Under the pieces are notes generated by a model. The model saw only the letters and a list, made by a program, of their open reading frames with translations. It had not been told where the DNA came from and made no database searches. 64,000 nucleotides of DNA from assembly GCA_947631455.1 (NCBI GenBank), contig CANRLH010000003.1, positions 1 to 64,000 on the forward strand, read 5' to 3'. Every line of letters starts with the position of its first letter. The stretch's first letter is position 1. Origin of the DNA: an uncultured Clostridia bacterium (GTDB taxonomy: Bacteria; Bacillota; Clostridia; Oscillospirales; Ruminococcaceae). Below are positions 19,127 to 38,257 of this stretch, piece by piece. The position numbers and the translations under genes are program-made.

Positions 19127-19128
19127 TA

Positions 19129-19157
19129 TTGACAATAAATATGTTTACCTATATTAT
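19129..19157 (+). promoter_or_regulatory. Sigma-A promoter of the recombinase gene
   Basis: TTGACA (19129-19134), 17 bp, TATTAT (19152-19157). Confidence 0.7.
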
Positions 19158-19227: not shown

Positions 19228-20070
19228 ATGTCTGAAATCAAATTAAAACAAAGTCTCGTAAAATCCTTTGAGCAGCATCTTTATGAGGAAGAGAAGAGCA
19301 GTGTGACCATTGACAATTACACCCGTCATGTCAGAGAATTCATTGCTTATGCGGGGGAGGCACCGCTTACTAAGGATCTTACGGTTGAATATAAAAATAC
19401 ACTTATTAATAGTGAAAGGTACGAGATCGGAAGCATAAATACAATACTTGCATCAATTAACAGCTTTTGTCGCTATCTTGGATGTTATGACTGCACGGTA
19501 AAGATTTTAAGAATGCAAAAAAAGACTTACCGCGACGAGGAGAAGGAGCTGACAAAGTCAGAGTACTTGAAATTGTTAAATGCGGCAAATGATCAGCCCC
19601 GACTAAAGCTTATCGTTGAGACAATATGCGCAACGGGAATAAGAGTATCAGAACTAAAATATTTTACGGTAGAATCAATAAAAAGCAACGAAATAGTTGT
19701 CAGCTGTAAAAACAAAACACGAACAATACTTGTACCGGGAAAGCTGAAAAACAAGCTGTTAAAATACATAAAAACTAACGGTATCAAATCCGGAGTGATA
19801 TTTCGTACAAGCCGGGGAAATCCTGTAAACCGCAGCAACATATGGCTGTCAATGAAAAAGCTGTGTAAGGATGCCGGCGTAAATCCATCAAAGGTATTTC
19901 CCCACAATCTGCGCAGACTTTTTGCTCGAACATTTTACGGAATCGAAAGAGATATTGTAAAGCTGGCGGATATTTTAGGGCATAGCAGCATTAACACCAC
20001 AAGAATTTATATTATGACAACGTATACTGAGCATTTAAGACGAATTGAACGTATGGGACTTGTGACGTAA
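19228..20070 (+). CDS. Tyrosine site-specific recombinase (XerC/D-like), candidate invertase
   Basis: SAM-like N-terminal domain; ATGIRVSEL, HNLRRLFARTF, LGHSSINTTRIYI catalytic boxes. ATG 19228 follows gggga. Confidence 0.92.
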   Translation: MSEIKLKQSLVKSFEQHLYEEEKSSVTIDNYTRHVREFIAYAGEAPLTKDLTVEYKNTLINSERYEIGSINTILASINSFCRYLGCYDCTVKILRMQKKTYRDEEKELTKSEYLKLLNAANDQPRLKLIVETICATGIRVSELKYFTVESIKSNEIVVSCKNKTRTILVPGKLKNKLLKYIKTNGIKSGVIFRTSRGNPVNRSNIWLSMKKLCKDAGVNPSKVFPHNLRRLFARTFYGIERDIVKLADILGHSSINTTRIYIMTTYTEHLRRIERMGLVT

Positions 20071-20085
20071 AAAAACAAAAAACGA

Positions 20086-20109
20086 CATTATTTACATAAT
20101 GTCGTGAAG
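20086..20109 (+). repeat. Left inverted repeat of candidate invertible element
   Basis: cattatttacataatgtcgtgaag, the exact reverse complement of 20368-20391. Confidence 0.93.
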
Positions 20110-20139
20110 CACATATTTCTCAACTCTAAATCCTAATAA

Positions 20140-20168
20140 ATTTTATCAAACATTTTAATAAAAGTCAA
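20140..20168 (-). promoter_or_regulatory. Sigma-A-like promoter inside the invertible segment
   Basis: Minus strand TTGACT (20163-20168), 17 bp, TAAAAT (20140-20145); points left in the sequenced orientation. Confidence 0.65.
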
Positions 20169-20298
20169 GTCTTTTTCATTGAAAATTGAGTTAAAATTTT
20201 ATAATCTGTTAAAAAGAACTTTTTCTTGTAAAAATATGCATAACAAATTAGTCCTCATTACATTTTTTTACTATATTTTGTGTGAGGGCTTTGTTCTC

Positions 20299-20330
20299 GT
20301 GTCCGTTATACGGGCACTTTTTTTATTTTT
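20299..20330 (+). terminator. Rho-independent terminator inside the invertible segment
   Basis: GTGTCCGT-tat-ACGGGCAC followed by a T-rich run (tttttttattttttt). Confidence 0.8.
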
Positions 20331-20367
20331 TAAAATACCTATATTAAAATATCGTATTTAAATACAT

Positions 20368-20391
20368 CTTCACGACATTATGTAAATAATG
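20368..20391 (-). repeat. Right inverted repeat of candidate invertible element
   Basis: cttcacgacattatgtaaataatg, the exact reverse complement of 20086-20109. Confidence 0.93.
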
Positions 20392-20440: not shown

Positions 20441-23125
20441 ATGAGAGAGGTGAGTGCGGTGTTTAAACTGTTTGAACACAATCAGGCTGCTTATGATTCT
20501 GTTGTTGAGATGCTGTCTCAGACAGGCAAGGCAGCGGTTATTCACCCCACCGGCACGGGCAAATCCTTCATAGGCTTTAAGCTGTGTGAGGACAATTTGG
20601 ATAAAACCGTATGTTGGCTTTCACCGTCAGAGTATATATTTAAAACCCAGCTTGAAAATCTTAAGGCTTCGGGCGGAAAATCTCCCGATAATATAAAATT
20701 TTTTACTTATGCAAAGCTTATGCAGATGTCACAAAGCGAACTTCATGAGATTAAGCCCGCATATATAATTCTTGACGAGTTTCACCGCTGCGGAGCTGAT
20801 ATGTGGGGCAAGGGCGTTAACAAGCTTCTGACTATGTATAACAAGGCTTTTGTTTTAGGACTTTCGGCTACTTCGATCCGCTATCTGGATAATCAGAGAG
20901 ATATGGCTGACGAACTTTTTGACGGCTGCATAGCTTCTGAAATGACACTTTCTGAAGCTATTGTCCGTGGAATTCTCAGCACACCAAAATACGTTTTGTC
21001 AGTATTTTCATATCAAAAGGATCTGGAAAGATTTGAGGCGCGTATAAAGCGCTCAAGAAATAAAGCGGTCGCAAATGAAGCGGAAAAATATCTTGAAGCA
21101 TTAAAACGTGCTCTTGAAATGTCAGAGGGCTTGGATGAGGTATTTTTTAAGCATATGACCGACCGTACCGGCAAATACATTGTGTTCTGCGCAAGCAGGG
21201 AGCATATGGAGGAGATGATTGGCAAGGCCTATGAGTGGTTTAAAAAAGTCGATCTAAATCCTCACATATACTCTGTGTATTCTGATGACCCAAGGGCGGG
21301 CATTTCGTTTGATGCCTTTAAAAATGACAGCGACAATGATCATCTCAGGCTTTTATACTGTATTGACGCTCTTAACGAAGGCATACACGTAGAAGGCGTC
21401 AGCGGTGTAATCCTTTTAAGACCTACAGTTTCTCCAATTATTTTCAAACAGCAAATAGGTCGGGCGCTATCAGCGAGCAAGGATAAAAAGCCTGTTATCT
21501 TTGATATTGTAAATAATATCAGCGGCCTGTACAGCATTTCAACACTTCAGGATGAAATGCGTGAAATTGTCCGTTATTATCAATATCTCGGAGAGGATCA
21601 CCGTATCGTGAATGATTCTTTTGAGATTTTTGATGAGGTTGAAGAGGCTCGTCGCCTTTTTGACGAGCTTGAGGAAGTCCTGTCTGCATCGTGGGACGCG
21701 ATGTTTGCAGAGGCAAAGCGCTACTTTGATGAATATGGTGACCTTTTGCCGCAGCAGAGCTATGTTACGCAAAACGGAGCAAGACTTGGTCAGTGGATAG
21801 TGACACAGCGAAACAACTATCGTAAGGGATCAGGTATTTCTCCTGCACGGGTAAAGAAGCTTGAATCTATTGGCATGAGCTGGCTTACGCTTCACGAGCG
21901 CATGTGGGAGGATGGCTTTAAGCTCGCAGAGAGCTACTATGAAAAATACGGTAATTTGGATGTTTCACCTCAAAATTCTTCAAGGCTCTCTTTTTGGCTA
22001 ATAAGACAGAGACAGAAATACCGCAAGGGGCAGCTTACCGAAGAACAGTTTAAGCGCCTGTCGCAGCTTGGAATGGTGTGGGAGTCTGAAGATTCGTGGA
22101 ATGCAAAATTTGCTGAGGCAAAGAAATATTTTGAGAATAACGGAAATCTGGATATACCCTCAACGTATACGACCGATGATGGAATCGCACTTGGCGCATG
22201 GTACAGAAGCGTTAAGGATCAGTATCGTACAGGTACTCTTTCAGATGAACGCATACAAAAGCTTGAGTCTATCGGAATGAAATGGACTTCGGTTACAGAC
22301 AGAAACTGGCAGAATTATTTTAACTTGGCCAGAGATTATTTTAAAACTTACGGGAATTTGAATGTTCATGCCGGATATACTGCATCCAATGGCGCTAAAC
22401 TTGGCGTTTGGATCTCCACTCAGAGAAACAGATACAAAAACGGGAAGCTTTCTGATGAGCAAATAGCGATGCTTGAATCAATTGGTATGTCATGGCAGCG
22501 TTTTTTTAGCAAATGGGACGAAGCATACGGTTATGCAGAGGAATATTACGCTGAGCACAAGGATATAAACCCGGCTGCGGGGTTTATTACAAATGACGGT
22601 TTTACGCTTGGCGCGTGGATAGCATCTCAGCGAAGAAAATTTAGCGCAGGAAAGCTCAGCAGAGGCAAAATTGAAAGATTAAACAAGCTTAACATGATAT
22701 GGAATCCGACTGATGCCAGATGGAAAGAGGGATATGAGCATGCTGTTCAATATAGCTGTGCGCATGGAAATCTCAATATTCCATTAACATTTATTTGCGA
22801 TGACGGATATATGCTTGGATCTTGGATAGCGAATCAGCGGACACGACACAGAACAGGCAAGTTGTCAGAAGATAGGATAAAACTGCTTGATAGTCTTGGA
22901 ATGATCTGGAGTGTACAGACAGAAAAGTGGAATTCAGGTTACGATCACGCATTGCAATACTGTGTTGACGGAGGGGGAGTACCTATTCCGAAAAGTTATA
23001 TATCCGGTGACGGATATCCGTTGGGTGAGTGGATCCGCTCACAGGAGAGAAGCTATAAAAAGGGAGTGTTGGATATCGGCAAGGTACAAAAGCTGGCGGA
23101 GATAGGCATTGAATTTGAGACATAA
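20441..23125 (+). CDS. DEAD/DEAH-type helicase with seven C-terminal helicase-associated (HA) repeats
   Basis: Walker A HPTGTGKSFIG, DEFHRCG (DExH), motif III-like LSATS, QQIGRALS motif VI; seven tandem W..(F/Y)..A..Y....G.L.....(Y/F)....G..LG.W...QR..Y..G.L...(K/R)...L...GM.W units. GTG 20459 after agaggtgag is an alternative start. Confidence 0.9.
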   Translation: MREVSAVFKLFEHNQAAYDSVVEMLSQTGKAAVIHPTGTGKSFIGFKLCEDNLDKTVCWLSPSEYIFKTQLENLKASGGKSPDNIKFFTYAKLMQMSQSELHEIKPAYIILDEFHRCGADMWGKGVNKLLTMYNKAFVLGLSATSIRYLDNQRDMADELFDGCIASEMTLSEAIVRGILSTPKYVLSVFSYQKDLERFEARIKRSRNKAVANEAEKYLEALKRALEMSEGLDEVFFKHMTDRTGKYIVFCASREHMEEMIGKAYEWFKKVDLNPHIYSVYSDDPRAGISFDAFKNDSDNDHLRLLYCIDALNEGIHVEGVSGVILLRPTVSPIIFKQQIGRALSASKDKKPVIFDIVNNISGLYSISTLQDEMREIVRYYQYLGEDHRIVNDSFEIFDEVEEARRLFDELEEVLSASWDAMFAEAKRYFDEYGDLLPQQSYVTQNGARLGQWIVTQRNNYRKGSGISPARVKKLESIGMSWLTLHERMWEDGFKLAESYYEKYGNLDVSPQNSSRLSFWLIRQRQKYRKGQLTEEQFKRLSQLGMVWESEDSWNAKFAEAKKYFENNGNLDIPSTYTTDDGIALGAWYRSVKDQYRTGTLSDERIQKLESIGMKWTSVTDRNWQNYFNLARDYFKTYGNLNVHAGYTASNGAKLGVWISTQRNRYKNGKLSDEQIAMLESIGMSWQRFFSKWDEAYGYAEEYYAEHKDINPAAGFITNDGFTLGAWIASQRRKFSAGKLSRGKIERLNKLNMIWNPTDARWKEGYEHAVQYSCAHGNLNIPLTFICDDGYMLGSWIANQRTRHRTGKLSEDRIKLLDSLGMIWSVQTEKWNSGYDHALQYCVDGGGVPIPKSYISGDGYPLGEWIRSQERSYKKGVLDIGKVQKLAEIGIEFET

Positions 23126-23168: not shown

Positions 23169-23930
23169 TTGGTTGTAAAAAAGAAAGGAACTGATGACAA
23201 GGTGTCTAAAGAAATTACAGCAGTTGTTCAGAACGATGCAGTATCGGTTGAGCAGGCAGTTTTGGATGGGACTTTAGTTACAGATATAGTTAATAATGCT
23301 TTACTTAAGCCCCGCGAGTATATTAGTTTTAAGAAAAAGCCGGTATATGATTTTTTTAAGAGAGTATTTGACATTGTTGTTTCGTTGATATGTCTTACCG
23401 TCGGACTTCCGATTTACATAATAATTGCCGCTGTAATAATGATAGACGATTTTGGAAATCCGCTGTTTATACAGGAACGTGTCGGTAAGAAAGGCAAAAT
23501 ATTCAGAATGATTAAGTTCAGAACGATGTATGTGCATTCTGACAGTATGAAGGAAAATTTAATGTCACAAAACGAATATGAGAGCGTTCATTTTAAAATA
23601 CATAATGATCCTAGAATCACGAGAGTTGGTCGGTTTTTGCGCAAGACCTCATTAGATGAGATCACACAAGCTGTCAACCTGCTGACAGGCTCTATGACAA
23701 TAATAGGTCCCAGACCATTTGTAAAGTCGGAACAGGATCAGTTGTCACAGGACAGGCTTTGTGTAAAACCCGGGTTATCAGGTTACTGGCAGATAACGGA
23801 CACAACGCAAATGACAAAAGAAGAACAGTTGGAGCTTGATTATAAATACATAAGAGAAAGATCATTCAAGACAGATATTTCAATTATTATCAAAACGGTT
23901 ATGGTGGTTATTAGACATAAAAACTACTGA
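23169..23930 (+). CDS. Bacterial sugar transferase (undecaprenyl-phosphate sugar-1-phosphate transferase)
   Basis: FFKRVFDIVVSLICLTVGLPIYI...RVGKKGKIFRMIKFRTM...LDEITQAVNLLTGSMTIIGPRPF. Start uncertain (TTG 23169 or GTG 23202). Confidence 0.93.
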   Translation: MVVKKKGTDDKVSKEITAVVQNDAVSVEQAVLDGTLVTDIVNNALLKPREYISFKKKPVYDFFKRVFDIVVSLICLTVGLPIYIIIAAVIMIDDFGNPLFIQERVGKKGKIFRMIKFRTMYVHSDSMKENLMSQNEYESVHFKIHNDPRITRVGRFLRKTSLDEITQAVNLLTGSMTIIGPRPFVKSEQDQLSQDRLCVKPGLSGYWQITDTTQMTKEEQLELDYKYIRERSFKTDISIIIKTVMVVIRHKNY

Positions 23931-23957
23931 TTTTAGCTGTTAGATGGGAGAAACGAA

Positions 23958-25892
23958 ATGAAGGATGTGGAGATATTTGTTCCGGGTAGGCTTTGCTTGT
24001 TTGGAGAGCATTCTGATTGGGCTGGTAGATATACGTTAAACAATCCAGATGTTCTGGCAGGAAAAGCAATAGTTACGGGAATAAATCTTGGCATATATGC
24101 CAATGCACGCACTCATGACAAATTCTCGATAATTTCCATAGATGAAAGTGGAAATACCGTTTCATTTTCGTGCGAAATGAAGTTGGACGTTTTAAAAATG
24201 CACGCAAAGCAGAGCCATTTTTTTTGTTATGCATGCGGAGTAGCTGCATATATGCTTGAGCATTACAAAATAGGCGGTGTGTCAATTAAAATAGACAAGG
24301 TAACTTTGCCTATAAAAAAGGGTTTGTCGTCAAGCGCGGCTATCTGCGTTTTAACTGCAAGGGCGTTTAATGAGCTTTATCATCTTCACATGAGTGTAAA
24401 CGGTGAGATGAATGCTGCTTATAGAGGCGAACTTCTGACAAATTCGCGATGCGGCAGGTTGGATCAGGCCTGTGCATATGGGATACAGCCTGTTTGCTTG
24501 GAGTTTTCAGGCGATGAGATTTCTACAGAAATATTGAAGGTCGGCAAAGATCTGTTCTGGGTTTTTGCTGATTTGAAATCAAAGAAAAATACAAAAAAAA
24601 TTTTGTCAGACTTAAACCGTTCTTATCCATTTCCGCAGACCGAACAGGATATAAAGGTCCATGAGGCTCTGGGTAAGGATAATCATGAGATTATATCAAA
24701 GGTGATCAAGGCTTTGGAAATTGGAGACGCTCAGGAAATCGGTCTTCTGATGACAGAGTCTCAAAGAATTTTTGATGAAAAGATAGCACCAAACTGTTCT
24801 TCTGAATTAACAGCTCCTAAATTGCATTTCGTGCTGAATGACGACACAATAAAAAAGTATTCATATGGCGGAAAAGGCGTTGGTTCACAGGGGGACGGAA
24901 CTATTCAGTTTATTGCAAAAGACCTTGAGTCACAGCACAAGTTGATAGATTATTTAAACGATAAATTAGGATTAAATGCGTATGCGTTTACTTTGCCCTC
25001 AAGCAGCAAAGTGTCAAAGGCAATTATTCCTGTTGCAGGATTTGGAACAAGAATGTATCCGGAAACAAGGTTTGTAAAAAAAGAGTTTTTGCCTGTAGTA
25101 GACAGTAACGGTTTTGCAAAGCCGGTAATTATGTATCTGCTTGAAGAAATAGAGGCTTCCGGAATAGAAGAAATTATATTGATAGTAGGTAAGGACGAGA
25201 TTGAGCAATTTCAGGAAATCTTTAAACCGTTGAGCGAGGAACACCTGAGCAAGCTTCCCCAGAGGGTCCAGGATTATGAAAAGCTGATCGCACGCATCAG
25301 TTCAAAAATTAAGTACGCCGTTCAGGAAGAGCGCCGAGGATTCGGACATGCAGTGTATCAGGCTAAGAAGTTTATTGGTAATGAGCCTGCATTGCTTATG
25401 CTCGGCGACTTCATATACAAAAGCAATCTTAATATAAGCTGCACAAAGCAAACGCTTAATGCTTATAGAAAATCCGGCGGAAAACTGATAGTGTCCATTA
25501 GGGAGACACCTATTGATGACGTTGTTCATTACGGAGTGCTTTTCGGTAAATTTGACACTTATAGAAAGTATCTTATGAATGTTACTGAGATGGTCGAAAA
25601 GCCGAGTGTTGAATATGCTGTGGACAACCTGGGAGTTAAAACGGTAGGTAATAATGCTAAGTACTACAGTACATTCGGTCAATATGTGCTGACACCTGAT
25701 GTTTTTGACTATCTGGAAGAGGATATCAAAGAGCATGACAATAAAAAGGACGATTCAGAAATCCAGCTGACATCAGCGTTGGTCAAGGCGTTGAACAACA
25801 AAGGAATGGTTGGAGTTTTAGTAGACGGAACAAGCTATGATGTCGGTATTCCGAAAGCATACAAAAAGACGATAAGTGAATATGGTAAATAA
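23958..25892 (+). CDS. Fusion protein: N-terminal GHMP sugar kinase and C-terminal UTP-sugar-1-phosphate uridylyltransferase
   Basis: N-term PGRLCLFGEHSDWAGRYT and LPIKKGLSSSAAICVLTARAFN (GHMP motifs); C-term AIIPVAGFGTRMYPETRFVKKEFLPVVD (GalU-like). Confidence 0.88.
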   Translation: MKDVEIFVPGRLCLFGEHSDWAGRYTLNNPDVLAGKAIVTGINLGIYANARTHDKFSIISIDESGNTVSFSCEMKLDVLKMHAKQSHFFCYACGVAAYMLEHYKIGGVSIKIDKVTLPIKKGLSSSAAICVLTARAFNELYHLHMSVNGEMNAAYRGELLTNSRCGRLDQACAYGIQPVCLEFSGDEISTEILKVGKDLFWVFADLKSKKNTKKILSDLNRSYPFPQTEQDIKVHEALGKDNHEIISKVIKALEIGDAQEIGLLMTESQRIFDEKIAPNCSSELTAPKLHFVLNDDTIKKYSYGGKGVGSQGDGTIQFIAKDLESQHKLIDYLNDKLGLNAYAFTLPSSSKVSKAIIPVAGFGTRMYPETRFVKKEFLPVVDSNGFAKPVIMYLLEEIEASGIEEIILIVGKDEIEQFQEIFKPLSEEHLSKLPQRVQDYEKLIARISSKIKYAVQEERRGFGHAVYQAKKFIGNEPALLMLGDFIYKSNLNISCTKQTLNAYRKSGGKLIVSIRETPIDDVVHYGVLFGKFDTYRKYLMNVTEMVEKPSVEYAVDNLGVKTVGNNAKYYSTFGQYVLTPDVFDYLEEDIKEHDNKKDDSEIQLTSALVKALNNKGMVGVLVDGTSYDVGIPKAYKKTISEYGK

Positions 25893-25928
25893 ATTACACG
25901 GGGCAACGGGCCTAAAAGAGGTTTTGTT

Positions 25929-26912
25929 ATGGCAATTTTGATCTGCGGCGGAGCAGGGTATATAGGAAGTCATATCAATAAATTATTGTCAAATAGCGGA
26001 TATGACACTATTGTTTACGACAATCTAATTTACGGTCACAGAGAATCTGTAAAATGGGGTAAGTTTATCAATGCAGATTTAGCGGATACTGAGGCTTTGG
26101 ATAAGGTTTTTTCAGAAAATGATATTGATGCAGTTTTTCATTTTGCAGCATTTGCATATGTTGGCGAAAGCGTTGAAGAGCCATCAAAATATTATGTAAA
26201 TAATGTGTGCAACACAATTAATTTACTTGAAGCAATGCGAAAGTATGGCTGTGATAAAATTGTTTTTTCCTCTACATGTGCTACCTATGGAGTTCCAGAA
26301 AAACTGCCGATTACCGAGGATATGCCACAGAATCCTGTTAATCCATACGGCGCAACAAAGCTTATGGTTGAGCGTATTTTTAAAGATTACAACGTGGCGT
26401 ATGGTTTAAAATTTGTTGTTTTAAGATATTTTAACGCTGCAGGTGCTGATCCAGATATTGAAATAGGTGAGAATCACACTCCTGAAACACATATTATTCC
26501 TTTGGTGATAGATGCTGCTTATAATAAGCGTCCTGACATAAAGGTTTACGGATCGAATTACCCGACTCGTGACGGTACATGTATACGTGATTATATTCAT
26601 GTTACTGACCTTGCTCAGGCACATTTGCTAGCACTTAAGTATCTTGAGCGCGGTGGTAAAAGTGACTTTTTCAATCTTGGAAACGAAAACGGTACATCAG
26701 TACTTGAAGTTATTGAGTCAGTAAAAAGAATCACAGGAAAAGATTTTAAGGTTACGCTGACAGACAGACGAGCAGGTGACCCTCCGATGCTTGTGGGAAG
26801 CAGCAGAAAAGCCAAAGAAATACTTAGTTGGAAGCCAATATACACTGATATTGATACTATTGTTTCACATGCTGTTAGATGGCATAAAAAACTTAATGGA
26901 TCAGAAGAGTAA
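25929..26912 (+). CDS. galE: UDP-glucose 4-epimerase
   Basis: CGGAGYIGSHINKLL, STCATYGVPEKLPITE, NPYGATKLMVERI. Confidence 0.93.
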   Translation: MAILICGGAGYIGSHINKLLSNSGYDTIVYDNLIYGHRESVKWGKFINADLADTEALDKVFSENDIDAVFHFAAFAYVGESVEEPSKYYVNNVCNTINLLEAMRKYGCDKIVFSSTCATYGVPEKLPITEDMPQNPVNPYGATKLMVERIFKDYNVAYGLKFVVLRYFNAAGADPDIEIGENHTPETHIIPLVIDAAYNKRPDIKVYGSNYPTRDGTCIRDYIHVTDLAQAHLLALKYLERGGKSDFFNLGNENGTSVLEVIESVKRITGKDFKVTLTDRRAGDPPMLVGSSRKAKEILSWKPIYTDIDTIVSHAVRWHKKLNGSEE

Positions 26913-26934
26913 AACGGGAGTTGAAGAAATAGAA

Positions 26935-27927
26935 ATGAATATTGTCTATGCAAGTGATGATAATTATGCGGATATTCTCGGAACGTCAATGCTTTCTTTG
27001 TTAGAAAACAACAAAGAAAGCGAGAGTATAGATGTGTATATTCTTGATGATGGTATAAAGGCTGACAACAAAAAAAAATTGCTGTCAATAGCAGAAAAGT
27101 ATAACCGCAAATTGATTTTTGTTTCTATACCAAATCTCCATGCACTTGCGGGAGTAGAAATCCATACAAATGAGAGATGGTCGCTGAGTACATTTTCGCG
27201 TCTTTTCCTTGAAGGACTTCTACCCCAAGAAGTCGAACAGGTAATTTATCTTGACTGTGATATTCTAGTAAATTCTTCGTTGGAGGAGATGTATAACACA
27301 GACTTAGGAGATTACTATTGCGGTGGGGTTGCCGATTGTCTGAGCGATGGTCACAAGGCTAATGTTGGTCTTTCTTCGGACGACTATTATATAAATGCAG
27401 GTGTAATGCTAATTTCACTTAAAAACTGGCGGAAGGCAAAGCTATGCGAAAAATTTATTTCATTTTTGAACAAATACGGTGGAAATACACCTTATGTTGA
27501 TCAGGGAGTCATTAACGGAATAATAGGAAAGAATATTATGCCGTTAAGCCTTAAATATGATGTTTATACTGCTATATTTGATTTTTCTTACAATGATCTT
27601 ATAAAGTATCGTAAACCATCTAAATATTATTCAGAGAAAGAGGTATATGATGCTAAAGAAAATCCAGTAATTATACATTTTACAACGAGTTTCTTATCTC
27701 TTCGTCCGTGGATCGAAAATTGCAATCACCCATATGTCTCAGAGTGGCTTAGGTATAAGGCAATGTCACCATGGGCAGATGCTCCTTTAAGAAAGGACAA
27801 TCGTTCAAAAATTAAGAAGTTAGCAATTGGTATTTATAAATTGTTGCCAAATAGTGTGGCTGTTTGTTTAGCAGGTTTTTTACATGCCAATATCGTGCCA
27901 ATGATCAGGGGATGGAAAAGAAAGTGA
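26935..27927 (+). CDS. Glycosyltransferase family 8 protein
   Basis: MNIVYASDDNYADILGTSMLSLLENN; LDCDILVNSSLEEMY (DxD). ATG 26935. Confidence 0.9.
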   Translation: MNIVYASDDNYADILGTSMLSLLENNKESESIDVYILDDGIKADNKKKLLSIAEKYNRKLIFVSIPNLHALAGVEIHTNERWSLSTFSRLFLEGLLPQEVEQVIYLDCDILVNSSLEEMYNTDLGDYYCGGVADCLSDGHKANVGLSSDDYYINAGVMLISLKNWRKAKLCEKFISFLNKYGGNTPYVDQGVINGIIGKNIMPLSLKYDVYTAIFDFSYNDLIKYRKPSKYYSEKEVYDAKENPVIIHFTTSFLSLRPWIENCNHPYVSEWLRYKAMSPWADAPLRKDNRSKIKKLAIGIYKLLPNSVAVCLAGFLHANIVPMIRGWKRK

Positions 27928-28403
27928 TGGTTTTTAAGATTATATATCATATTAGGTCAGCTATATATGAAATAATATTAAAAATAATTTATAGGTCAAG
28001 GTTTAAGATCGGTAAACAGGTTACATGGAGAAAAGGATTTTCGTTGATGATTTCCGATACCGGTAAAGTAATAATCGGTGATAATTGTTTTTTTAATAAT
28101 TACTGCTCAATAAATTGCATGGAGTCAGTAGTAATTGGAGCAGGGGTTATTATGGGTGAAAATGTTAAGATATATGATCATAATCATATATATTCAGATG
28201 CATATGTGCCTATAAAAAATCAGGGTTATACAAAAGCTCCGGTTAAAATAGGTAATCATTGTTGGATTGGGAGTAATGTAACAATATTAAAGGGCATTAG
28301 CATTGGAAACAATGTTGTTGTCGGTGCAAACTGTTTGATTTATAAAGATATTCCGGACAACAGCGTTGTAATGTCAAGCGAAAAGTTAATTTATAAAATG
28401 TAA
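27927..28403 (+). CDS. Hexapeptide-repeat acyltransferase (LbH/CysE-like)
   Basis: Hexapeptide repeats (IGDNCFFNNYCSINCMESVVIGAGVIMGENVKIYDHNH...IGNHCWIGSNVTILKGISIGNNVVVGA). Confidence 0.88.
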   Translation: MVFKIIYHIRSAIYEIILKIIYRSRFKIGKQVTWRKGFSLMISDTGKVIIGDNCFFNNYCSINCMESVVIGAGVIMGENVKIYDHNHIYSDAYVPIKNQGYTKAPVKIGNHCWIGSNVTILKGISIGNNVVVGANCLIYKDIPDNSVVMSSEKLIYKM

Positions 28404-28480
28404 CATAATGCAGAAGAAAAAAGTGAGTAATTTCTAGAACTAGACAATTATGTTTTTGATTTTTTAAGGTGTTTTAAAAT

Positions 28481-29620
28481 ATGGTAAGTAAAACAATTGT
28501 TCAAAACAACGTGAAAAAATGCGGATTTAAAAGCTTAGTAGAAAACTTGCCTTTTGCAAATAGGCTCATTCTTATTAGTATTATTCCGCTTAGTATTTTT
28601 GTCAAAATAGTTCAGTACAATTTTTTACCTTCAAAGTATTTTTTTGACAGCGGTAGAATATTGAGACTGATGTCTAATAGAGGGGTTAATGCAATAAGTT
28701 TTTCAGGAGACGCATTTAATAATTCTGCTTTGTTATTTAAAAATATAAATTTTTTTAACCTAACTATACTTCTTGAATGGAGTATTTTAATAGCATTTAT
28801 TACAGATATATTTTTATTATATTATTTTCTAAGAAATAAAATCAACAGTAAATTTGAACTAATTGTTACATATAGTTTCTTGGGGCTTTTAAATCTTTAT
28901 GTGTTTAATTTATCAAAAGAAATTATACAGTTTGTCATATTTACATTTATATGTTTAGTTATTAAGAACGAAAGAATTAAGATGCAAATGAAATATGCAC
29001 TAATATGTATAATGCTTATACTTGAAAGTGTATTTTTCAGAACTTATTATGTTTTAATGGCAGCATTATTCATATCTATTTCAATAATATTTTATGTGTC
29101 TTTTAAATCTGACCGTAAAACAGGATTTAGCAAAATATCGTTCTTAGTGATAATAGCTTTAATTGGTATTTATATATTTCTTATAATTTGTGAGTATTTA
29201 ATGCCTGAAGAATATCAGGAACTCTTACAGGTAAGAAACCATATGACATTAGGTAGAATAGGTGATGATTCAGCACAAACATTAATTCTAAATTTGATTC
29301 CTGATAACGGAAATAAGCTATTATTCATTGTAAATTATTTCATCAATTTTGTTCGTATCTTATTTCCTGTTGAGTTAATAGTTAAAGGAGTTTATTACTG
29401 GATTTTTATTGGTTTTCAGTTGTTATGCACATACTGTTTATTTAAAAAATTAAAGTATTATAAAATTCTTTCGGTGAAAGAAAAAATGTGCTTATGCTTG
29501 ATACTTGCATATTATGTTACCGGTGTTTTTTTTGAGCCCGATTTTGGATCTTTTGTAAGGCATGAAGCTGCTACTGCGCCAATATGGTTTGCGTTAGTAA
29601 ATGGCATAAGAGAATTTTGA
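28481..29620 (+). CDS. Multi-pass membrane protein, candidate Wzy-like polysaccharide polymerase
   Basis: 379 aa with many hydrophobic segments in a polysaccharide cluster; no family motif recognised. Confidence 0.55.
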   Translation: MVSKTIVQNNVKKCGFKSLVENLPFANRLILISIIPLSIFVKIVQYNFLPSKYFFDSGRILRLMSNRGVNAISFSGDAFNNSALLFKNINFFNLTILLEWSILIAFITDIFLLYYFLRNKINSKFELIVTYSFLGLLNLYVFNLSKEIIQFVIFTFICLVIKNERIKMQMKYALICIMLILESVFFRTYYVLMAALFISISIIFYVSFKSDRKTGFSKISFLVIIALIGIYIFLIICEYLMPEEYQELLQVRNHMTLGRIGDDSAQTLILNLIPDNGNKLLFIVNYFINFVRILFPVELIVKGVYYWIFIGFQLLCTYCLFKKLKYYKILSVKEKMCLCLILAYYVTGVFFEPDFGSFVRHEAATAPIWFALVNGIREF

Positions 29621-29643
29621 AATATAATGGATGGATATATAAA

Positions 29644-30384
29644 ATGATACCTAAAATTATACACTATTGCTGGTTTGGCAATAACCCTTTGCCTGAGTTT
29701 GCACGTAAGTGTATTGAAAGTTGGAAAAAATATTGTCCCGGATATAAAATTATTGAGTGGAATGAAAAAAATTTTGACATAAATTGTATACCATTTGTAA
29801 AACAGGCTTATGAAGCTAAAAAGTGGGCTTTTGTAACTGATTATGCTCGCTTAAAAATAGTATACGATAATGGTGGCGTTTATTTTGATACAGATGTTGA
29901 ATTAATAAAAGGAATTGATGATTTAGTTAAATTAGACGCTTTTTTAGGAACAGAAGAAGACGAATTAATAAATACCGGATTAGGATTTGGTGCTAAAAAA
30001 AATCATCCTATGATAAAGGAATTAATGGAGGATTATCATTGTAGAATTTTTAACTTTACGGATAAGAACCTTTATGAATTAGCTTGTCCTATCTTAACAA
30101 CTCAAATTTTTGAAAAATACGGATATGTTAAAAATAATTTATTTCAAGTTATTAAAGGTGTGGCTGTTTTTCCTAAAGAATTTTTTGCCCCTATGAGCTG
30201 CCAAACATATGAATTGAATATTACCAACAATACATACTCAATACATCACTATACTGCAAGTTGGAAACCGTTAAAATATAATTACTTAAGAAAGGCTATC
30301 AAGTTATCAACAAGGATATTAGGCAAAAATAACACATTGAAGCTAAAGGAAATAGTGAAGTCAATTCTAAACAAAAATGAATGA
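29644..30384 (+). CDS. Glycosyltransferase with DXD sugar-binding region (Och1/Gly_transf_sug-like)
   Basis: IPKIIHYCWFGNNPLPEFARKCIESWKKYCPGYKIIEWNE...YDNGGVYFDTDVE. Confidence 0.9.
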   Translation: MIPKIIHYCWFGNNPLPEFARKCIESWKKYCPGYKIIEWNEKNFDINCIPFVKQAYEAKKWAFVTDYARLKIVYDNGGVYFDTDVELIKGIDDLVKLDAFLGTEEDELINTGLGFGAKKNHPMIKELMEDYHCRIFNFTDKNLYELACPILTTQIFEKYGYVKNNLFQVIKGVAVFPKEFFAPMSCQTYELNITNNTYSIHHYTASWKPLKYNYLRKAIKLSTRILGKNNTLKLKEIVKSILNKNE

Positions 30385-30625
30385 TTAGATAATGTTTTAA
30401 TTATTATTATTTGTGTTCTTTTAGAGTAGCAGAATTTAGTAATTCGTACGTAAGTAAAAAATACAAATGAGATTTAATAATTTTCTGAGACGATAAGAAA
30501 AGTAAGATATTATCAATTGTCACAGGTCATTAATTTAACTTGTTTTTTGTGTGATATAACTATCTTAAAATGGTTATTAACGTTGCAAATATTTGTTATT
30601 AAAATAGGATTTATGGAGAGAAAAT

Positions 30626-31849
30626 ATGACAAGTGATTTTAAAAGAAAATCTAGTACTTTCAAAAAATTGTTTTATATTTTGCGCGAAAGCTTGTGTTTA
30701 CATACGATTAACAAAAATAGAGTATTGTTTTATAGCTTCGACGGTATGTATAATGATAATCCAAAATATATCTCGGAAGAATTACATGCGCAGCGTCCCG
30801 AAGTTGAGATTGTTTGGGTACATTCATCCAAATGCCACGATAAATTACCTGACTATGTGAACTGTGTAGAATCCAAAACAAGTGCTTATTACAAAGCAAT
30901 TTTTAGTGCAAATGTTGTTGTGGATAATTATACTGGGCTCAGGGCTGGTTTTTCAAGTAAAATAAATTTGTTACGAAGGCTAATATGTGTTTTATATAGT
31001 CGCAGGTTCAAAGGGCAGTATAATATATCAACTTGGCATGGAACACCCTTAAAACACTTAGATTTGGATCAACCAGGTATTAATCGTAAAAGAATAAAAT
31101 ATTATTCTGGTTCAGATTATTTTATTGCAGGTTGTGAGCATACAAAGAAAGCGTTGATAAGTGGGTTTAGCCTGAATGTGCCTTTTAAACTATACGGCAC
31201 ACCAAGAAATGATATTCTTTTTAGAATGGACATAGATACAAAAAAAATCAAAAAAAAATTATCACTTCCGTGTAATCAAAAAATTGTTCTGTTTGCACCA
31301 ACATTTCGAGAAAATGTAGAAATGAGTGGAGTATCACAGATGAGTAGTTTAAATTTTGCTAAATTGATTGAATCATTGAAAATGAAATTTGGTGGACTAT
31401 GGTGTTTTGTTGTAAGAGTACATCACAGCGTAATGCAGAAAATCAATACGGCTGAATTAATACAAAAGTATAGAGGTGTGCAGATCGTCGATGGTAATAT
31501 TGGCGATGATATGGCGGAATATCTGGCCTGCACCGATGTTTTGATTACTGATTACTCTGGTTCATTATTTGATTTTGCTCTGACTAAGCGACCATGTTTT
31601 CTGTATGCTCCTGACAGGGAACAGTATGAAAAGGTAGAAAGAGGTTTTTATATGGATTATGATGCGTTGCCATTTCCTAAATCGTACACCGCTGAGGAAT
31701 TGGTAAAAAATATTGCATCGTTTGATGAAATCAGGTATGGGCAGAAAGTGGAAAAATTTCTTGAGGATATTGGCAATGCAGAAGATGGACATGCTTCAAA
31801 GAGAGTGGTACATGATATACTTCGTTTCTTGGATACGTGTATGAAATAG
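30626..31849 (+). CDS. CDP-glycerol:poly(glycerophosphate) glycerophosphotransferase-family (TagB/TagF-like)
   Basis: WHGTPLKHLDLD, LFAPTFRE, DVLITDYSGSLFDFALTKRPCFLYAPD. Confidence 0.88.
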   Translation: MTSDFKRKSSTFKKLFYILRESLCLHTINKNRVLFYSFDGMYNDNPKYISEELHAQRPEVEIVWVHSSKCHDKLPDYVNCVESKTSAYYKAIFSANVVVDNYTGLRAGFSSKINLLRRLICVLYSRRFKGQYNISTWHGTPLKHLDLDQPGINRKRIKYYSGSDYFIAGCEHTKKALISGFSLNVPFKLYGTPRNDILFRMDIDTKKIKKKLSLPCNQKIVLFAPTFRENVEMSGVSQMSSLNFAKLIESLKMKFGGLWCFVVRVHHSVMQKINTAELIQKYRGVQIVDGNIGDDMAEYLACTDVLITDYSGSLFDFALTKRPCFLYAPDREQYEKVERGFYMDYDALPFPKSYTAEELVKNIASFDEIRYGQKVEKFLEDIGNAEDGHASKRVVHDILRFLDTCMK

Positions 31850-32018
31850 AAGAAATATATTAAGATATCTAACGTTGCTTTTAGAGAAGTTTATCAATAA
31901 AATTTTAACAAATGATAAGATATTAATTATTTTTAATAGAACCATTACTATCTATCAGGAACAAATTAGTATGTTGAGAAATTACTTTATAAGAAGAGAA
32001 AATGGAGGAGATCGAAAA

Positions 32019-33044
32019 ATGAGTGGAGATAAATGTTTCATTGTTGTTCCGGGAAATGGGTTTCCTAAGTATACGTATGAGGATATACATAAAGATGATA
32101 GAGTGCAGTTTTTAAACAGTACAACCGTAAGATGTCCCAGAAGTAAATTCCTTTCAACGTTGAAAAAACTGCACTGTAGCACGAAAATTAACCAGATTGT
32201 AAATCTTCCACTAAAACGGCTGATATGGGGATTTTCATTAGATAAAATTGATTGGGATCCGAATAAGCAGTATTATGTATTACTAATAGGACCAAAACCA
32301 ATGACTGCAAAGTATATGAACGAATTAAAAAAGAAACATAACATTAAATATGTGATAATGACAGCGGTTCCTTTAGGAGAAAATACTGAGTTAGGATACA
32401 ATAAATATTTGCTCGACTTTATATCTGCAGTCGATATAGATTATCTGTTTTCTTCTGATGTGGGGAATGTCGAAAAATACGGTTTTACATTTAATTATTG
32501 TCCATATTCAGTGTTCAATAAAAAAACAGATCAGATTGAGTATGATCTGTATTTCGCGGCAACCCCTAAAAAAAGAATAGATAATTGTTTGAAGCTATAT
32601 GAAGATTCACTCAAAAATGGCGTAAATGCAAGGTTTAGATTAACAAATGTGGTAAGTGTAAAACAAAAAGATTATGGAGAAGGAGTAATATATAATAAAT
32701 ATATAGAATATCCAAGCTTAATAGACGAAGTGCTTAAAAGCAATTGTATTCTCGAAATAGTTAAAGTTGGGCAAAGGTGCAACACTCTTCGCTATTATGA
32801 GGCTGTCTGCTATAACAAAAAGCTACTTACAACAAATAAAAATGTTGTAAACCTGCCATTTTATGATCCAAGGTATATGAAGGTTTTTGAAAAACCAGAG
32901 GATATAGACTGGGAGTGGGTAAAAAAACGCGAACCGATTGATTATCATTACGACGGAAGATTCTCACCAACTCACCTTATAGATAAAATAATAGAGCTTG
33001 AAGAAGAAAAAAAGAAAGAAGGCAGAGGATTTGCCGAGGAGTAG
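32019..33044 (+). CDS. Putative glycosyltransferase-like protein of polysaccharide cluster
   Basis: LRYYEAVCYNKKLLTTNK resembles GT1/GT4-like C-terminal regions; ATG 32019 chosen within a longer ORF (31875). Confidence 0.45.
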   Translation: MSGDKCFIVVPGNGFPKYTYEDIHKDDRVQFLNSTTVRCPRSKFLSTLKKLHCSTKINQIVNLPLKRLIWGFSLDKIDWDPNKQYYVLLIGPKPMTAKYMNELKKKHNIKYVIMTAVPLGENTELGYNKYLLDFISAVDIDYLFSSDVGNVEKYGFTFNYCPYSVFNKKTDQIEYDLYFAATPKKRIDNCLKLYEDSLKNGVNARFRLTNVVSVKQKDYGEGVIYNKYIEYPSLIDEVLKSNCILEIVKVGQRCNTLRYYEAVCYNKKLLTTNKNVVNLPFYDPRYMKVFEKPEDIDWEWVKKREPIDYHYDGRFSPTHLIDKIIELEEEKKKEGRGFAEE

Positions 33045-34443
33045 GCTTATAGATTTCTTTAAAAACATATCGTACACGTTCACATCAAATATATTGTCGA
33101 TGTTAATATCTGCGATAATAATACTTGTTGTTCCCAAATTCATAAATGTAGAGCAATACGGGTATTATCAGCTATATGTTTTCTATACCGGATATGTTGG
33201 AGTGTTGGCTTTTGGATGGTATGAAGGGATTTATCTGCGAGAGGGCGGAAAGTATTACAAAGACTTGGATAAGCCGTTATACTCCACACAATTTCGTTTA
33301 TTAGGGCTATGTGAAGTTTTCATTTATTTACTTATATTTATCTGCTCACTGTTTATTGTAGATGATAAAAACAAACATTTTGTAATCGGTTGCACCTGCA
33401 TAGTTGCAGTTTTTATGTGTTTAAGGTGGTTCATAACATTTATACTTCAAGCAACAGGGAGGATAAAAGAATTCGCTATAGTTACTATTTCCGAGAAAAT
33501 TATTTTAGTAATACTGGCTATATTGCTGATATTAACAGGCTACAGACAATTTCATTTACTAATATGTTCAAATGTCTTAGCTGTATTTGTATCGCTGTGT
33601 ATTGGCATCTGGTACTGCAAGGATCTGTTTTTTTCAAGTTGTATAAGTATAAAAAATACAGTTGGAGAGATAAAGGAAAACATCTCAGCAGGCTCTAAGC
33701 TTTTAATGTCAGGACTAAGTAGCTTGCTTATCATTGGCGTAGTCAGATTCGAAATAGAGCGTCACTGGGATATATCAACCTTCGGAAAAGTATCACTTTC
33801 ATTAAGTATTTCCAATATGGTGGTTACAGCGATAAACGCAATATCAGTGGTAATGTATCCAACGCTTAGAAGAACAAGCCAAGAGAGATTACCGGAAATA
33901 TACAGTGTAATGCGAATAATACTTATGGGACTGATATTCGGTGTACTTACGATGTATTATCCGATGATGAAAATACTATCGGCGTGGCTTCCTCAGTATT
34001 CCGAGAGCTTAAGATATGCGGCAATTCTGTTTCCTGTATGCGCATATGAGAGCAAGGTATCAATGCTTGTAAATACATACTACAAAAGCCTCAGGATGGA
34101 AAACGTTTTGATGAAATGCAATATGGCTTCATTGGCGTTAAGCGTTGTATGTACACTTATCTCAACAGTGGTGCTTAACAGCGTAACAATGGCGATACTA
34201 TCAATACTTTTTGTACTGATATTCCGTTGTGTGATATGTGAGTTGTTTCTTTCAAAAAGAATACCCATTCACGTAACAAAAGATATTATCATCGAAATAT
34301 TAATGACGATAGCATTCATAATAAGCAACTGGTTCTTTGGTTTTTGGGGAATGCTTGCATACATTCTTATGTATTTAGGATATCTGTACATAAAGAAAGT
34401 GGATATAAAAGAAGCAATAAATTTTGTAAGATCAATGAGGTGA
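32998..34443 (+). CDS. Wzx-like oligosaccharide flippase
   Basis: About 12 TM segments; NILSMLISAIIILVVPKFINVEQYGYYQLYVFYTGYVG is typical of polysaccharide biosynthesis flippases. Confidence 0.87.
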   Translation: MKKKKRKKAEDLPRSRLIDFFKNISYTFTSNILSMLISAIIILVVPKFINVEQYGYYQLYVFYTGYVGVLAFGWYEGIYLREGGKYYKDLDKPLYSTQFRLLGLCEVFIYLLIFICSLFIVDDKNKHFVIGCTCIVAVFMCLRWFITFILQATGRIKEFAIVTISEKIILVILAILLILTGYRQFHLLICSNVLAVFVSLCIGIWYCKDLFFSSCISIKNTVGEIKENISAGSKLLMSGLSSLLIIGVVRFEIERHWDISTFGKVSLSLSISNMVVTAINAISVVMYPTLRRTSQERLPEIYSVMRIILMGLIFGVLTMYYPMMKILSAWLPQYSESLRYAAILFPVCAYESKVSMLVNTYYKSLRMENVLMKCNMASLALSVVCTLISTVVLNSVTMAILSILFVLIFRCVICELFLSKRIPIHVTKDIIIEILMTIAFIISNWFFGFWGMLAYILMYLGYLYIKKVDIKEAINFVRSMR

Positions 34444-34447
34444 TAAA

Positions 34448-35761
34448 ATGCCCCAGAACAGCAGGAAGTATCTGCTAAAAAGGATAGCGGAAAAGAACCG
34501 GGAAATAAAAGTGGAAATGAAAAAAACAGAACTGTCTGATTGTGGCAATTGGTACTATGATGAAAGCAAGGGAGAGATACGAAATTACGACGGCAGCTTT
34601 TTTCAGATAAAGGGCATACAAAAATATGAAGGCGGACAAGCTGTTATGGAGCAGCCGGTAATTATACAGAATGAAATAGGATACTTAGGGATCATACGCA
34701 AAAAGATAAGCGGAGAAATGCATTACTTGATGCAGTATAAGATTGAGCCGGGAAATATAAATAAGATACAGATATCACCGACAATTCAGGCAACTAAGTC
34801 TAATTTCACACAAAAACACGGTGGTAGAAAGCCAGCATATCTTGAATACTTTGTAAATGCGGAAAAATATAAAATAATCGTTGACCAGATACAGTCTGAG
34901 CAATCATCAAGATTTCTTGCCAAGAGAAATCGGAATATAATCATAGAAATTGACGAGGATATAGAAGTCCTGCCAAGCCATGACTGGATGACGTTAAAGC
35001 AGATAAAGGAGCTTATGCGATATGACAATCTGGTCAATATGGATACGAGGACAGTTATTTCCTGCCTACCGCTTTGTGATGAGGAGTACTTAAGTGAGAT
35101 CACCGATGACAGCTTTAAACGGTCGGTGACTGGTGATGGTAAAAACAGATTGCCTGAAATATATCGGTACATAAATAATTACAAGATGTTTGAAGATACC
35201 GAAAAGAGGCTAGTTCCGCTGTATTCTCTGAAAAGCTGGGAAATGAAAAACGGTGAATTTGTATGTAAGGAACCTTACAGCTTCAAAGTGGTATTCTGCG
35301 ATATTGAAATTGAGGGCAGAGAGGTAAAGCATTGGACACAGCCGCTTTTTGAAGCATCTGGGATAGCGACCTTTGGACTTATGACAAGAATACATAAGGA
35401 CGCATATGAATTTCTTGTAAGGGCAACGCCGGAGATCGGCTGTTTTGACAAGATAGAACTCGGTCCTACTGTTCAACGAGAGTATGTTCATAACCATAAG
35501 CTCAATGAAGTGGACAGGCTTTTTGATGATAAGCTAAAAAGAAAAGAAGGGGTAGTGTTTGACACACTTTTGTCAGAAGAAGGCGGAAGGTTTTATCACG
35601 AGCAAAACAGAAATGTCATAATGAGAATAAGCGAAGAAGACTTAACTAAGCTGCCGGAGGGATATTTCTGGGTCGACTATAAGACGCTAAATATGTTGGT
35701 TCAGGTAAATAACTGTTTAAACATTCAGCTTAGAAATCTGCTTTCGGTATTGGAGTGGTGA
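34448..35761 (+). CDS. NDP-hexose 2,3-dehydratase (EvaA/TylX3-like)
   Basis: GGQAVMEQPVIIQNEIGYLGII...YLMQYKIEPGNINKIQISPTIQATKSNFTQKHGGRKPAYLEYF with a degenerate internal duplication (LVRATPEIGCFDKIELGPTVQREY). Confidence 0.8.
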   Translation: MPQNSRKYLLKRIAEKNREIKVEMKKTELSDCGNWYYDESKGEIRNYDGSFFQIKGIQKYEGGQAVMEQPVIIQNEIGYLGIIRKKISGEMHYLMQYKIEPGNINKIQISPTIQATKSNFTQKHGGRKPAYLEYFVNAEKYKIIVDQIQSEQSSRFLAKRNRNIIIEIDEDIEVLPSHDWMTLKQIKELMRYDNLVNMDTRTVISCLPLCDEEYLSEITDDSFKRSVTGDGKNRLPEIYRYINNYKMFEDTEKRLVPLYSLKSWEMKNGEFVCKEPYSFKVVFCDIEIEGREVKHWTQPLFEASGIATFGLMTRIHKDAYEFLVRATPEIGCFDKIELGPTVQREYVHNHKLNEVDRLFDDKLKRKEGVVFDTLLSEEGGRFYHEQNRNVIMRISEEDLTKLPEGYFWVDYKTLNMLVQVNNCLNIQLRNLLSVLEW

Positions 35762-36777
35762 GATTGGAAAAGCTAAGAATCGGAATAATCTGCCCGTCAG
35801 AAATAGCTTTCAGGCGTTTTATGCCGGCAATACAAAAATGCGACGGAGCGAAATACATAGGAGTTGCGCACGCAAGCGCAAAAGAGTGGTTCGGAGATAA
35901 AGAGGCGGACAGCACGGTAATAGATAACGAGGCAAAGAAGGCTCAGAGCTTTGAAGACGAATATGGCGGAAAGGTATTTTCGAGCTATGGGGAGTTACTT
36001 GAATCTTCAGAGATAAATGCGGTTTACTTGCCGTTGCCGCCAGCACTGCATTTTAAGTGGGCAAAAAAAGCTCTTGAGAACGGAAAGCATATATTTCTTG
36101 AAAAGCCGTCAACTACCAGTGCCGGTGACACAAGAGATCTTTTGGAGATAGCAAGAGAAAAGGGGCTTGCAGTGCATGAAAACTATATGTTTCAGTTTCA
36201 TAATCAGATAGAAGAGATACAGGATATAGTAAAAGGCGGGAGGATAGGCGATGTAAGACTTTATCGAATAGCGTTCGGATTTCCGCAACGTCAGAAAAAT
36301 GATTTCAGATACAATAAGGAGCTTGGCGGCGGAGCGCTGCTAGACTGCGGAGGTTACACCATAAAGCTTGCGTCAATGCTTCTGGGAAAGACAGCACAGC
36401 TTAAATATTCTAATCTTAATTATACAGATGAGTTTGATGTTGATATCTACGGCAGTGTTGCAATGGTAAATGACAAAGGAGTTACAGCACAGCTGTCATT
36501 CGGAATGGATAACAGCTATAAATGTGAGCTTGAGGTATGGGGAAGTAAAGGGTTTATTCGCACTGGAAGGATACTGACAGCGCCGGACGGCTTTGAGCCT
36601 GTTGCTGAGGTAACAGTGGGGAACGAAACAGAAATTATAAAGCTATCGGCAGACGATACATTTAAAAAGTCAATAGAAAAGTTCTGCCGGTGTGTAAATG
36701 ATAAAGAGCAGAGAGAAGAAAATTACAAGGCTATATTAAGACAGGCTGAGCTTGTCGAAGAGGCGAGAGGAGAATAA
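35755..36777 (+). CDS. Gfo/Idh/MocA-family oxidoreductase, likely NDP-hexose 3-ketoreductase
   Basis: AVYLPLPPALHFKWAKKALENGKHIFLEKPSTTS; position next to the 2,3-dehydratase. Confidence 0.82.
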   Translation: MVRLEKLRIGIICPSEIAFRRFMPAIQKCDGAKYIGVAHASAKEWFGDKEADSTVIDNEAKKAQSFEDEYGGKVFSSYGELLESSEINAVYLPLPPALHFKWAKKALENGKHIFLEKPSTTSAGDTRDLLEIAREKGLAVHENYMFQFHNQIEEIQDIVKGGRIGDVRLYRIAFGFPQRQKNDFRYNKELGGGALLDCGGYTIKLASMLLGKTAQLKYSNLNYTDEFDVDIYGSVAMVNDKGVTAQLSFGMDNSYKCELEVWGSKGFIRTGRILTAPDGFEPVAEVTVGNETEIIKLSADDTFKKSIEKFCRCVNDKEQREENYKAILRQAELVEEARGE

Positions 36778-36779
36778 AA

Positions 36780-37352
36780 ATGGCTAACTTAAAAATAACG
36801 GAGCTTGAGCTTTCTGGAGTAAAGATAATTGAACCTACATACTTTGAAGATTATAGAGGGTATTATTGTGAAACCTATTCTTCAAGGACTATGAGCGAAT
36901 ATGGACTTGACGTTAAGTTCGTTCAGGATAATCACAGCTTGTCATTAAAGAAAGGAATAATCAGAGGTATACATTTTCAAAATAATCCAAAGCCACAGCT
37001 GAAGCTCGTTCGCTGCACAAGGGGCAGGGTTATGGATTATGCTGTTGATTTGAGAAGTGATTCTCCTACATACAAAAAGTGGGTAGCGGTAGAGCTTTCA
37101 GCTGAGAACAGGAAACAGATATGGATACCGTCCGGATTTGGTCATGCGTTTATTACTCTTGAGGATAACTGTGAGGTACAGTATAAGGTAGACGAATGGT
37201 ATTATCCGGAGCTGGACAGAGCTATAGCGTGGAACGATCCTGAAATCGCGATAGATTGGGGAACCGATTCACCGATAATATCTGTAAAGGATACCAAAGC
37301 ACCGACACTTGCAGAAAGTGACGTAAATTTTACAGTAAAGGAAAACGGATAA
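36780..37352 (+). CDS. rfbC: dTDP-4-dehydrorhamnose 3,5-epimerase
   Basis: FVQDNHSLSLKKGIIRGIHFQNNPKPQLKLVRCTRGRVMDYAVDLR. Confidence 0.93.
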   Translation: MANLKITELELSGVKIIEPTYFEDYRGYYCETYSSRTMSEYGLDVKFVQDNHSLSLKKGIIRGIHFQNNPKPQLKLVRCTRGRVMDYAVDLRSDSPTYKKWVAVELSAENRKQIWIPSGFGHAFITLEDNCEVQYKVDEWYYPELDRAIAWNDPEIAIDWGTDSPIISVKDTKAPTLAESDVNFTVKENG

Positions 37353-38257
37353 TGAAAAAAGCAATAGTGACGGGAGCAGGAGGATTTATCGGCGGAGCGC
37401 TGACAAAAGTGCTCTCTGAAGATAATCTTGTTTATGCGATTTTATTTAGTGATAAAGAGAAGCTATCTCTATTTAAATCTCCGAACATAATTCCGATAGT
37501 AGGGGATTTAAACGATTGGGAGATGATTGCAAAACAGATAGATGCAAGCGAAGAAATAGATATTTTTTATCATCTTGCATGGGGAGGTATTTCCTCTGCG
37601 GCATATAAAGACATAGAGATTCAAAAAGAAAATATCACTATGTCTATCAACAGCGCAAAGCTTGCTAAATTACTTGGATGTAAAAAGTTTGTGTTTGCGG
37701 GAACGAATCAAGAATATCTAATGTCACAATCTTTACTTGACAATACAGTTACTAATGCAAGCGTTTATGGTATATGTAAAATGTGCGCAAGAAACGTTTG
37801 TCAGGTTATGTTAAAGGATGTAATGGAGTTTAATTCAACAGCTTTCACAAATGTATTTGGAGTTGGAGATTTTTCAAAAAGGACGGCGAATTTTTTCATA
37901 AGCAAACTAATGTCAGGAGAATCACTAAATCTTGTAGAAGGAAATAACAAATATGACTGGATATATATTGATGATGCTGTAGAAGGACTGATAGCAGTTG
38001 GAAATAAAGGAATAAACGGTAAGCAGTATTATATAGGGTCAAGGGTAATTCCAACATTCAAGGAAATACTTAATAAAGTAAGGGATATAATTTTTCCGGA
38101 AGCAATACTTAATTTTGGTGCATATAACGATGATACATATACAGACTATTCAAAATTTGACCTTGACGCCCTCTATAACGACACCGGCTTTGAATGTAAG
38201 GCAGACTTTAAGGAAAGTGTTTTAAAGACAGCAAAGTGGATAAAAGAAAACTTATGA
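37352..38257 (+). CDS. NAD-dependent epimerase/dehydratase, candidate NDP-4-ketosugar reductase
   Basis: Rossmann VTGAGGFIGGALTKVL; extended SDR with YGICK. Confidence 0.82.
   Translation: MKKAIVTGAGGFIGGALTKVLSEDNLVYAILFSDKEKLSLFKSPNIIPIVGDLNDWEMIAKQIDASEEIDIFYHLAWGGISSAAYKDIEIQKENITMSINSAKLAKLLGCKKFVFAGTNQEYLMSQSLLDNTVTNASVYGICKMCARNVCQVMLKDVMEFNSTAFTNVFGVGDFSKRTANFFISKLMSGESLNLVEGNNKYDWIYIDDAVEGLIAVGNKGINGKQYYIGSRVIPTFKEILNKVRDIIFPEAILNFGAYNDDTYTDYSKFDLDALYNDTGFECKADFKESVLKTAKWIKENL

Follow-up and report, generated by a model that had tools for sequence, protein, structure and literature searches.

Does the short segment between a tyrosine recombinase gene and a helicase gene in this clostridial DNA invert, and would its inversion switch the genes downstream on and off? 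An earlier note on the window (the whole stretch of 64,000 nucleotides analysed here) had described a 24-bp sequence shortly after the recombinase gene and its exact reverse complement further on, and we find this inverted repeat to be exact in letters and position, with 258 nt between the arms (Table 1). The left arm begins 15 bp past the stop codon of the recombinase gene (which ends at 20070) and is embedded in a longer palindrome, 20082–20105, followed by a T-tract on the minus strand. No second copy of the 24-bp arms was found in the organism's own genome, where the repeat is unique, and an Rfam search of 19000–21000 returned no known RNA element.

Recombinase and layout of the locus

The recombinase combines the PF00589 domain with the R-K-H-R-H/W-Y residues by which tyrosine site-specific recombinases are recognized; its catalytic residues (R139, K163, H226, R229, H252 and Y261) are all present and are invariant across 13 relatives. 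It scores below the cut-offs of the NCBIfam model NF007370 for FimB/FimE-like tyrosine-type DNA invertases (22.9 bits, cut-off 221) and of the chromosome-dimer XerC and XerD models TIGR02224 (96.2 against 335 bits) and TIGR02225 (99.7 against 330 bits). The closest named invertase that we met is PsrA, a streptococcal tyrosine-type DNA invertase with 30.5% identity to the window recombinase, whose substrate – hsdS coding sequences, according to the available text of the source (PMC11709252) – is unlike the promoter here. The promoter of the recombinase gene itself (19129–19157) lies outside the invertible segment, and its TTGACA region is conserved in the two nearest relatives, L034 and L035 (93% and 80% recombinase identity), which have also kept the arms (exact), the invertible promoter and the terminator.

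Table 1. Coordinates of the features of the switch locus within the window
Feature	Position	Strand	Remarks
Recombinase-gene promoter, sigma-A-like, TTGACA-17-TATTAT	19129..19157	+	11/12 consensus matches
Tyrosine recombinase, 280 aa, ATG 19228	19228..20070	+	Pfam PF00589, E 1.3e-23
Leftward intrinsic terminator (left site hairpin, -11.1 kcal/mol, and T-tract)	20070..20105	-	predicted
Left recombination site, palindrome ACGACATTAT-TTAC-ATAATGTCGT	20082..20105		
Inverted repeat, left arm	20086..20109	+	24 nt, 100% complementary to right arm
Invertible interior, 258 bp	20110..20367		inversion as judged from relatives
Invertible promoter, sigma-A-like, TTGACT-17-TAAAAT, extended -10 TG	20140..20168	-	points left (OFF)
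Hairpin AGTCCTCA...TGAGGGCT then TTGTT, -12.6 kcal/mol	20250..20290	+	repeat of the ACACCCTY...RAGGGTGT type
Intrinsic terminator GTGTCCGT-TAT-ACGGGCAC and T-tract	20299..20330	+	predicted rightward action, OFF
Inverted repeat, right arm	20368..20391	-	outer half not palindromic, no T-tract
Helicase, DEAD/ResIII and 7 helicase-associated (HA) domains, GTG start	20459..23125	+	Pfam HA, E 6.9e-125
Exopolysaccharide genes, presumed controlled operon	23169..45572	+	putative extent

Family distribution and evidence for inversion

A search with the recombinase against genome contigs yielded 71 loci, 70 of which were examined for a repeat. An inverted repeat lies directly 3' of the recombinase in 43 of these 70 relatives, with arms of 15–65 bp and interiors of 187–492 bp; about 18 relatives with enough flanking sequence gave no repeat, and these are mostly distant Bacilli at 31–38% identity. 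A palindrome of the form ACATAAT-NNNN-ATTATGT is common to most sites; its central 4 nt vary between loci and agree between the two arms of one locus, as expected if strand exchange requires identical cores. A cultured relative, Hespellia stercorisuis DSM 15480 (L045), carries the cassette in the ON state. The same layout is found in plasmid-collection records of named strains, of Monoglobus pectinilyticus (L135) and of Subdoligranulum variabile, which has two switches; these (L137 and L138 of Subdoligranulum variabile TSDC17.2-1.1) carry different site cores, and one is apparently ON and the other OFF. Sites doubled at one or both ends, about 30–55 bp apart, were seen at L039, L042, L043, L080 and L137, and such doubling would make two inversion lengths possible.

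Both orientations occur among the relatives: at least eight loci are ON, with the promoter facing the cargo, and most are OFF. The segments of L087 and L091 are identical at 291 of 348 positions when one is inverted (same-orientation score 26, shuffled maximum 31), L087 and L063 agree at 348 of 446 positions after inversion, and L066 matches L065 at 230 of 258 and L064 at 226 of 259 positions, L065 and L066 doing so only after inversion; further, weaker pairs of opposite orientation were also found. In the opposite pairs the recombinase end is 92–98% identical and collinear, and the interior alone is turned. The comparison of related strains proposed in the earlier note has thus revealed both orientations with collinear flanks, and its reading of the element as an invertible ON/OFF switch with a dedicated recombinase is supported. 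Sequence comparison therefore establishes inversion for the family; within the genus, the window copy, L034 and L035 are all OFF, and screening the genus at the DNA level for an ON copy recovered no locus beyond L034 and L035.

Contig ends lie on the 3' side of the recombinase in 10 cases vs 4 on the 5' side. One contig (L014, G026 contig 19) is palindromic about such a switch: two identical copies of the recombinase lie on either side of the midpoint of its inverted duplication, and the switch has probably misled the assembly here. This contig and the excess of 3' breaks fit mixed orientations in the samples.

Invertible promoter and terminators

The minus-strand promoter that had been read at 20168..20140 inside the repeat is present and has an extended -10 TG besides; in both L034 and L035 its -35 is a perfect TTGACA. 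Inverted repeats here flank a promoter beside the regulated gene, which is the layout that characterizes invertons. Of the 38 non-redundant interiors of the family, 16 contain a promoter scoring at least 11.5, where dinucleotide shuffles would lead one to expect 0.24; the -35 sits 55–80 nt inside the arm in 19 of 29 good promoter cases. We also considered a plus-strand TATAAT at about 20200 as a second promoter and dropped it, since it has no conserved -35 in the alignment.

A plus-strand terminator had likewise been claimed for the interior, and was found as a hairpin at 20299–20317 (-11.5 kcal/mol) with its T-tract; stem and T-tract are retained in L034 and L035. Together with the hairpin at 20250–20290 it forms a tandem of plus-strand hairpins with T-tracts in the OFF orientation. 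The sequenced orientation is indeed OFF, as had been proposed, in that the promoter points left and the plus-strand terminators stand on the rightward path. Inversion in silico gave the predicted opposite state, with the promoter facing the helicase gene and zero plus-strand terminators left between the recombinase and helicase genes. Over the family, the bias of interior terminators to the OFF strand is weak to moderate (18.3 vs 13.7 kcal/mol on the other strand, p=0.023), because several of the hairpins are palindromic. The predicted rightward terminator is well supported at the window locus and only partly general in the family. An inverted repeat ACACCCTY-N(about 26)-RAGGGTGT recurs in many relatives about 55–80 bp upstream of the -35 of the invertible promoter, sometimes nested in a longer outer stem (GCATAAC...GTTGTGC); a terminator, an operator or a recombination accessory site are its candidate roles.

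A predicted feature that the earlier note had missed, and that is stronger in the family than the rightward terminator, is the terminator formed by the left site. Across the family, an outward-reading intrinsic terminator is predicted for the left site in 28 of 38 loci and for the right site in 5 of 38 (p=5e-6). The A-tract at the sites is one-sided (6.5 vs 2.9 A of 10, p=5e-7), and that behind the recombinase genes is richer than those behind 589 other ORFs (p=1e-8). We incline to the view that the recombinase-side site of the family doubles as an intrinsic terminator, which would dead-end the OFF promoter, keep antisense transcription out of the recombinase gene and insulate both states. If this is true, one site serves both DNA recombination and RNA termination, and does so only at the end where it is useful.

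Presumed controlled genes and their context

The first controlled gene had been taken to start at ATG 20441; this start most likely gives way to GTG 20459, which lies behind AGAGGTGA, is conserved in L034 and L035, and is preferred because L035 lacks the upstream ATG. The genes that follow the helicase gene (23169..45572) encode a priming sugar transferase, a GalU-like protein, an epimerase, glycosyltransferases and a polysaccharide export protein. HA-type helicases stand behind the switch in about 10 loci, and the next genes of other loci encode surface proteins, including proteins with LRR, VWA, Cna_B and SLH. At two loci, tandem pairs of HA-domain helicase genes come straight after the switch (L087:9303-14391 and L091:9576-14818). 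The window also encodes, at 23958-25892, a 644-aa fusion of GHMP-kinase-like (galactokinase-like) and GalU-like nucleotidyltransferase domains.

Close relatives of the recombinase and of the helicase co-occur in the same 3 of 15 genus genomes, and the preceding M18 peptidase gene is present in 15 of 15, so that switch and cargo appear to travel as an island. In two genomes (G007 and G005, loci L129 and L130) the genes after the M18 gene are homologous to the window genes at 55.6–58.8 kb and have the opposite orientation. The stretch from the recombinase to the polysaccharide genes (20000-55000 of the window) looks like an inserted island.

Proposed mechanism and alternative explanations

We consider it highly probable that the element is a switch that makes surface polysaccharide phase-variable through site-specific inversion. 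The sequence itself supplies the parts, both orientations among relatives, the conserved position of the promoter and the left-site terminator; from these we infer that the window copy inverts, that the adjacent recombinase inverts it, that the promoter and terminators are functional, and that the operon extends as far as the polysaccharide genes. The recombinase, made from its own promoter (19129), would act on the sites around 20082-20105 and 20368-20391 and flip the 258-bp interior. In the OFF state transcription from the leftward promoter would end after about 60 nt, at the left-site terminator and before the recombinase gene, and rightward transcription, including read-through from the recombinase gene, would be halted at 20299-20330. 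In the ON state the promoter would face the helicase and exopolysaccharide genes with no rightward terminator between, and the operon would be transcribed from the switch promoter, perhaps also via recombinase read-through; the right site, kept free of a T-tract, would let the ON transcript pass.

It is possible, though in our judgement not the better reading, that the element is purely an invertible promoter, the plus-strand hairpins serving only to end the recombinase transcript in the usual way or to bind a protein, with no bearing on ON/OFF control. The weak rightward bias over the family and the recurrent ACACCCTY...RAGGGTGT repeat, often without a T-tract behind it, fit this simpler reading; against it, the three nearest loci have retained the GTGYCYGT...ACGGGCAC stem together with its T-tract, and a terminator that moves with the switch cannot end the recombinase mRNA in the ON state. 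A similar objection may be raised to the left site, whose terminator could be a by-product of palindromic sites and of an A-tract serving DNA bending or recombinase binding, with no part in transcription. A-tracts do bend DNA, and palindromic recombinase sites are expected anyway. We nevertheless find this explanation rather doubtful, given that the one-sided A-tract falls on the side that needs the leftward T-tract and that the right sites, which the ON transcript would have to cross, are without it.

That all three genus loci are OFF would also suit a decayed or locked switch, one that the recombinase of this genus has ceased to invert and that stays OFF; this is improbable in view of the intact catalytic residues, the exact arms in all three loci, the interior promoter that has been kept and the even better -35 of the nearest relatives. 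Tyrosine recombinases serve as integrases too, and the repeats might on that ground be taken for the remnant of a transposon or prophage and not for a regulatory switch. We give this very little credence: adjoining transposon or phage genes are absent, the position between recombinase and surface genes is constant in dozens of genomes, only three weak matches were found among 50,697 phage records, and the pairs of opposite orientation make it unlikely. We retain the inversion switch as the preferred reading. Gut Clostridia would gain with it a self-contained cassette – recombinase, sites, promoter and terminators – for the phase variation of surface polysaccharides and proteins. Its ON or OFF state can be read from sequence and, because the sites and promoters are recognizable, metagenome reads that already exist could be used to count the two orientations in many species that have never been cultured.

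Comparison with known systems

The combination of promoter and terminator in one invertible segment had been put forward as new, which it is not: fimS of E. coli already unites the invertible promoter of fimA with a Rho-dependent terminator whose target is the mRNA of fimE, the recombinase gene upstream (PMC9993118, PMC2784873). The present element resembles fimS in its segment of about 300 bp, in the tyrosine recombinase encoded alongside, and in its promoter and predicted terminator on the upstream recombinase mRNA; the layout and the in silico prediction fit the fimS type, in which that mRNA meets a terminator in the OFF state that is removed in the ON state. In contrast to the Rho-dependent terminator of fimS, the terminators here look intrinsic; the fim system uses two recombinases with IHF, Lrp and Fis, whereas one recombinase is found here; and, unlike fimS, the present element has palindromic sites of greater length, and its recombinase-side site includes a predicted terminator.

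The cwpV and cmr switches of C. difficile (RecV) are similar in being clostridial, in depending on a tyrosine recombinase and in their surface-related genes (PMC2784873, PMC8844915). According to the available text of the sources, cwpV forms an intrinsic terminator in the OFF orientation, with no recV in the vicinity and a promoter external to the switch (PMC2784873), cmr has an invertible promoter (PMC8844915), and neither is described there as joining both elements (PMC2784873, PMC8844915). We rule out a switch of the cwpV type, since the main promoter here lies inside the invertible element and that of cwpV-type switches outside. The capsule switches of Bacteroides (Mpi) share an invertible promoter before a capsular polysaccharide operon; they differ (in part according to PMC11892184) in having one distant invertase for many loci, another promoter consensus, and a first gene of the UpxY type where an HA-domain helicase stands here. 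The accessible part of the same source, which presents the hCom2 catalogue, lists Firmicutes_A inverton groups 125 and 139 from Clostridia with previously unpublished repeat motifs, group 139 lying near tyrosine recombinases and including read-proven flipping (Clostridium sp. D5, 26-bp arms, interior of about 205 bp) (PMC11892184). Some members of groups 125 and 139 may belong to the same family as the window switch.

The element is thus best classed as a family-wide clostridial version of the fimS-type switch; what sets it apart is the one-sided terminator site, which suggests that selection shapes the insulation of transcription in invertible switches.
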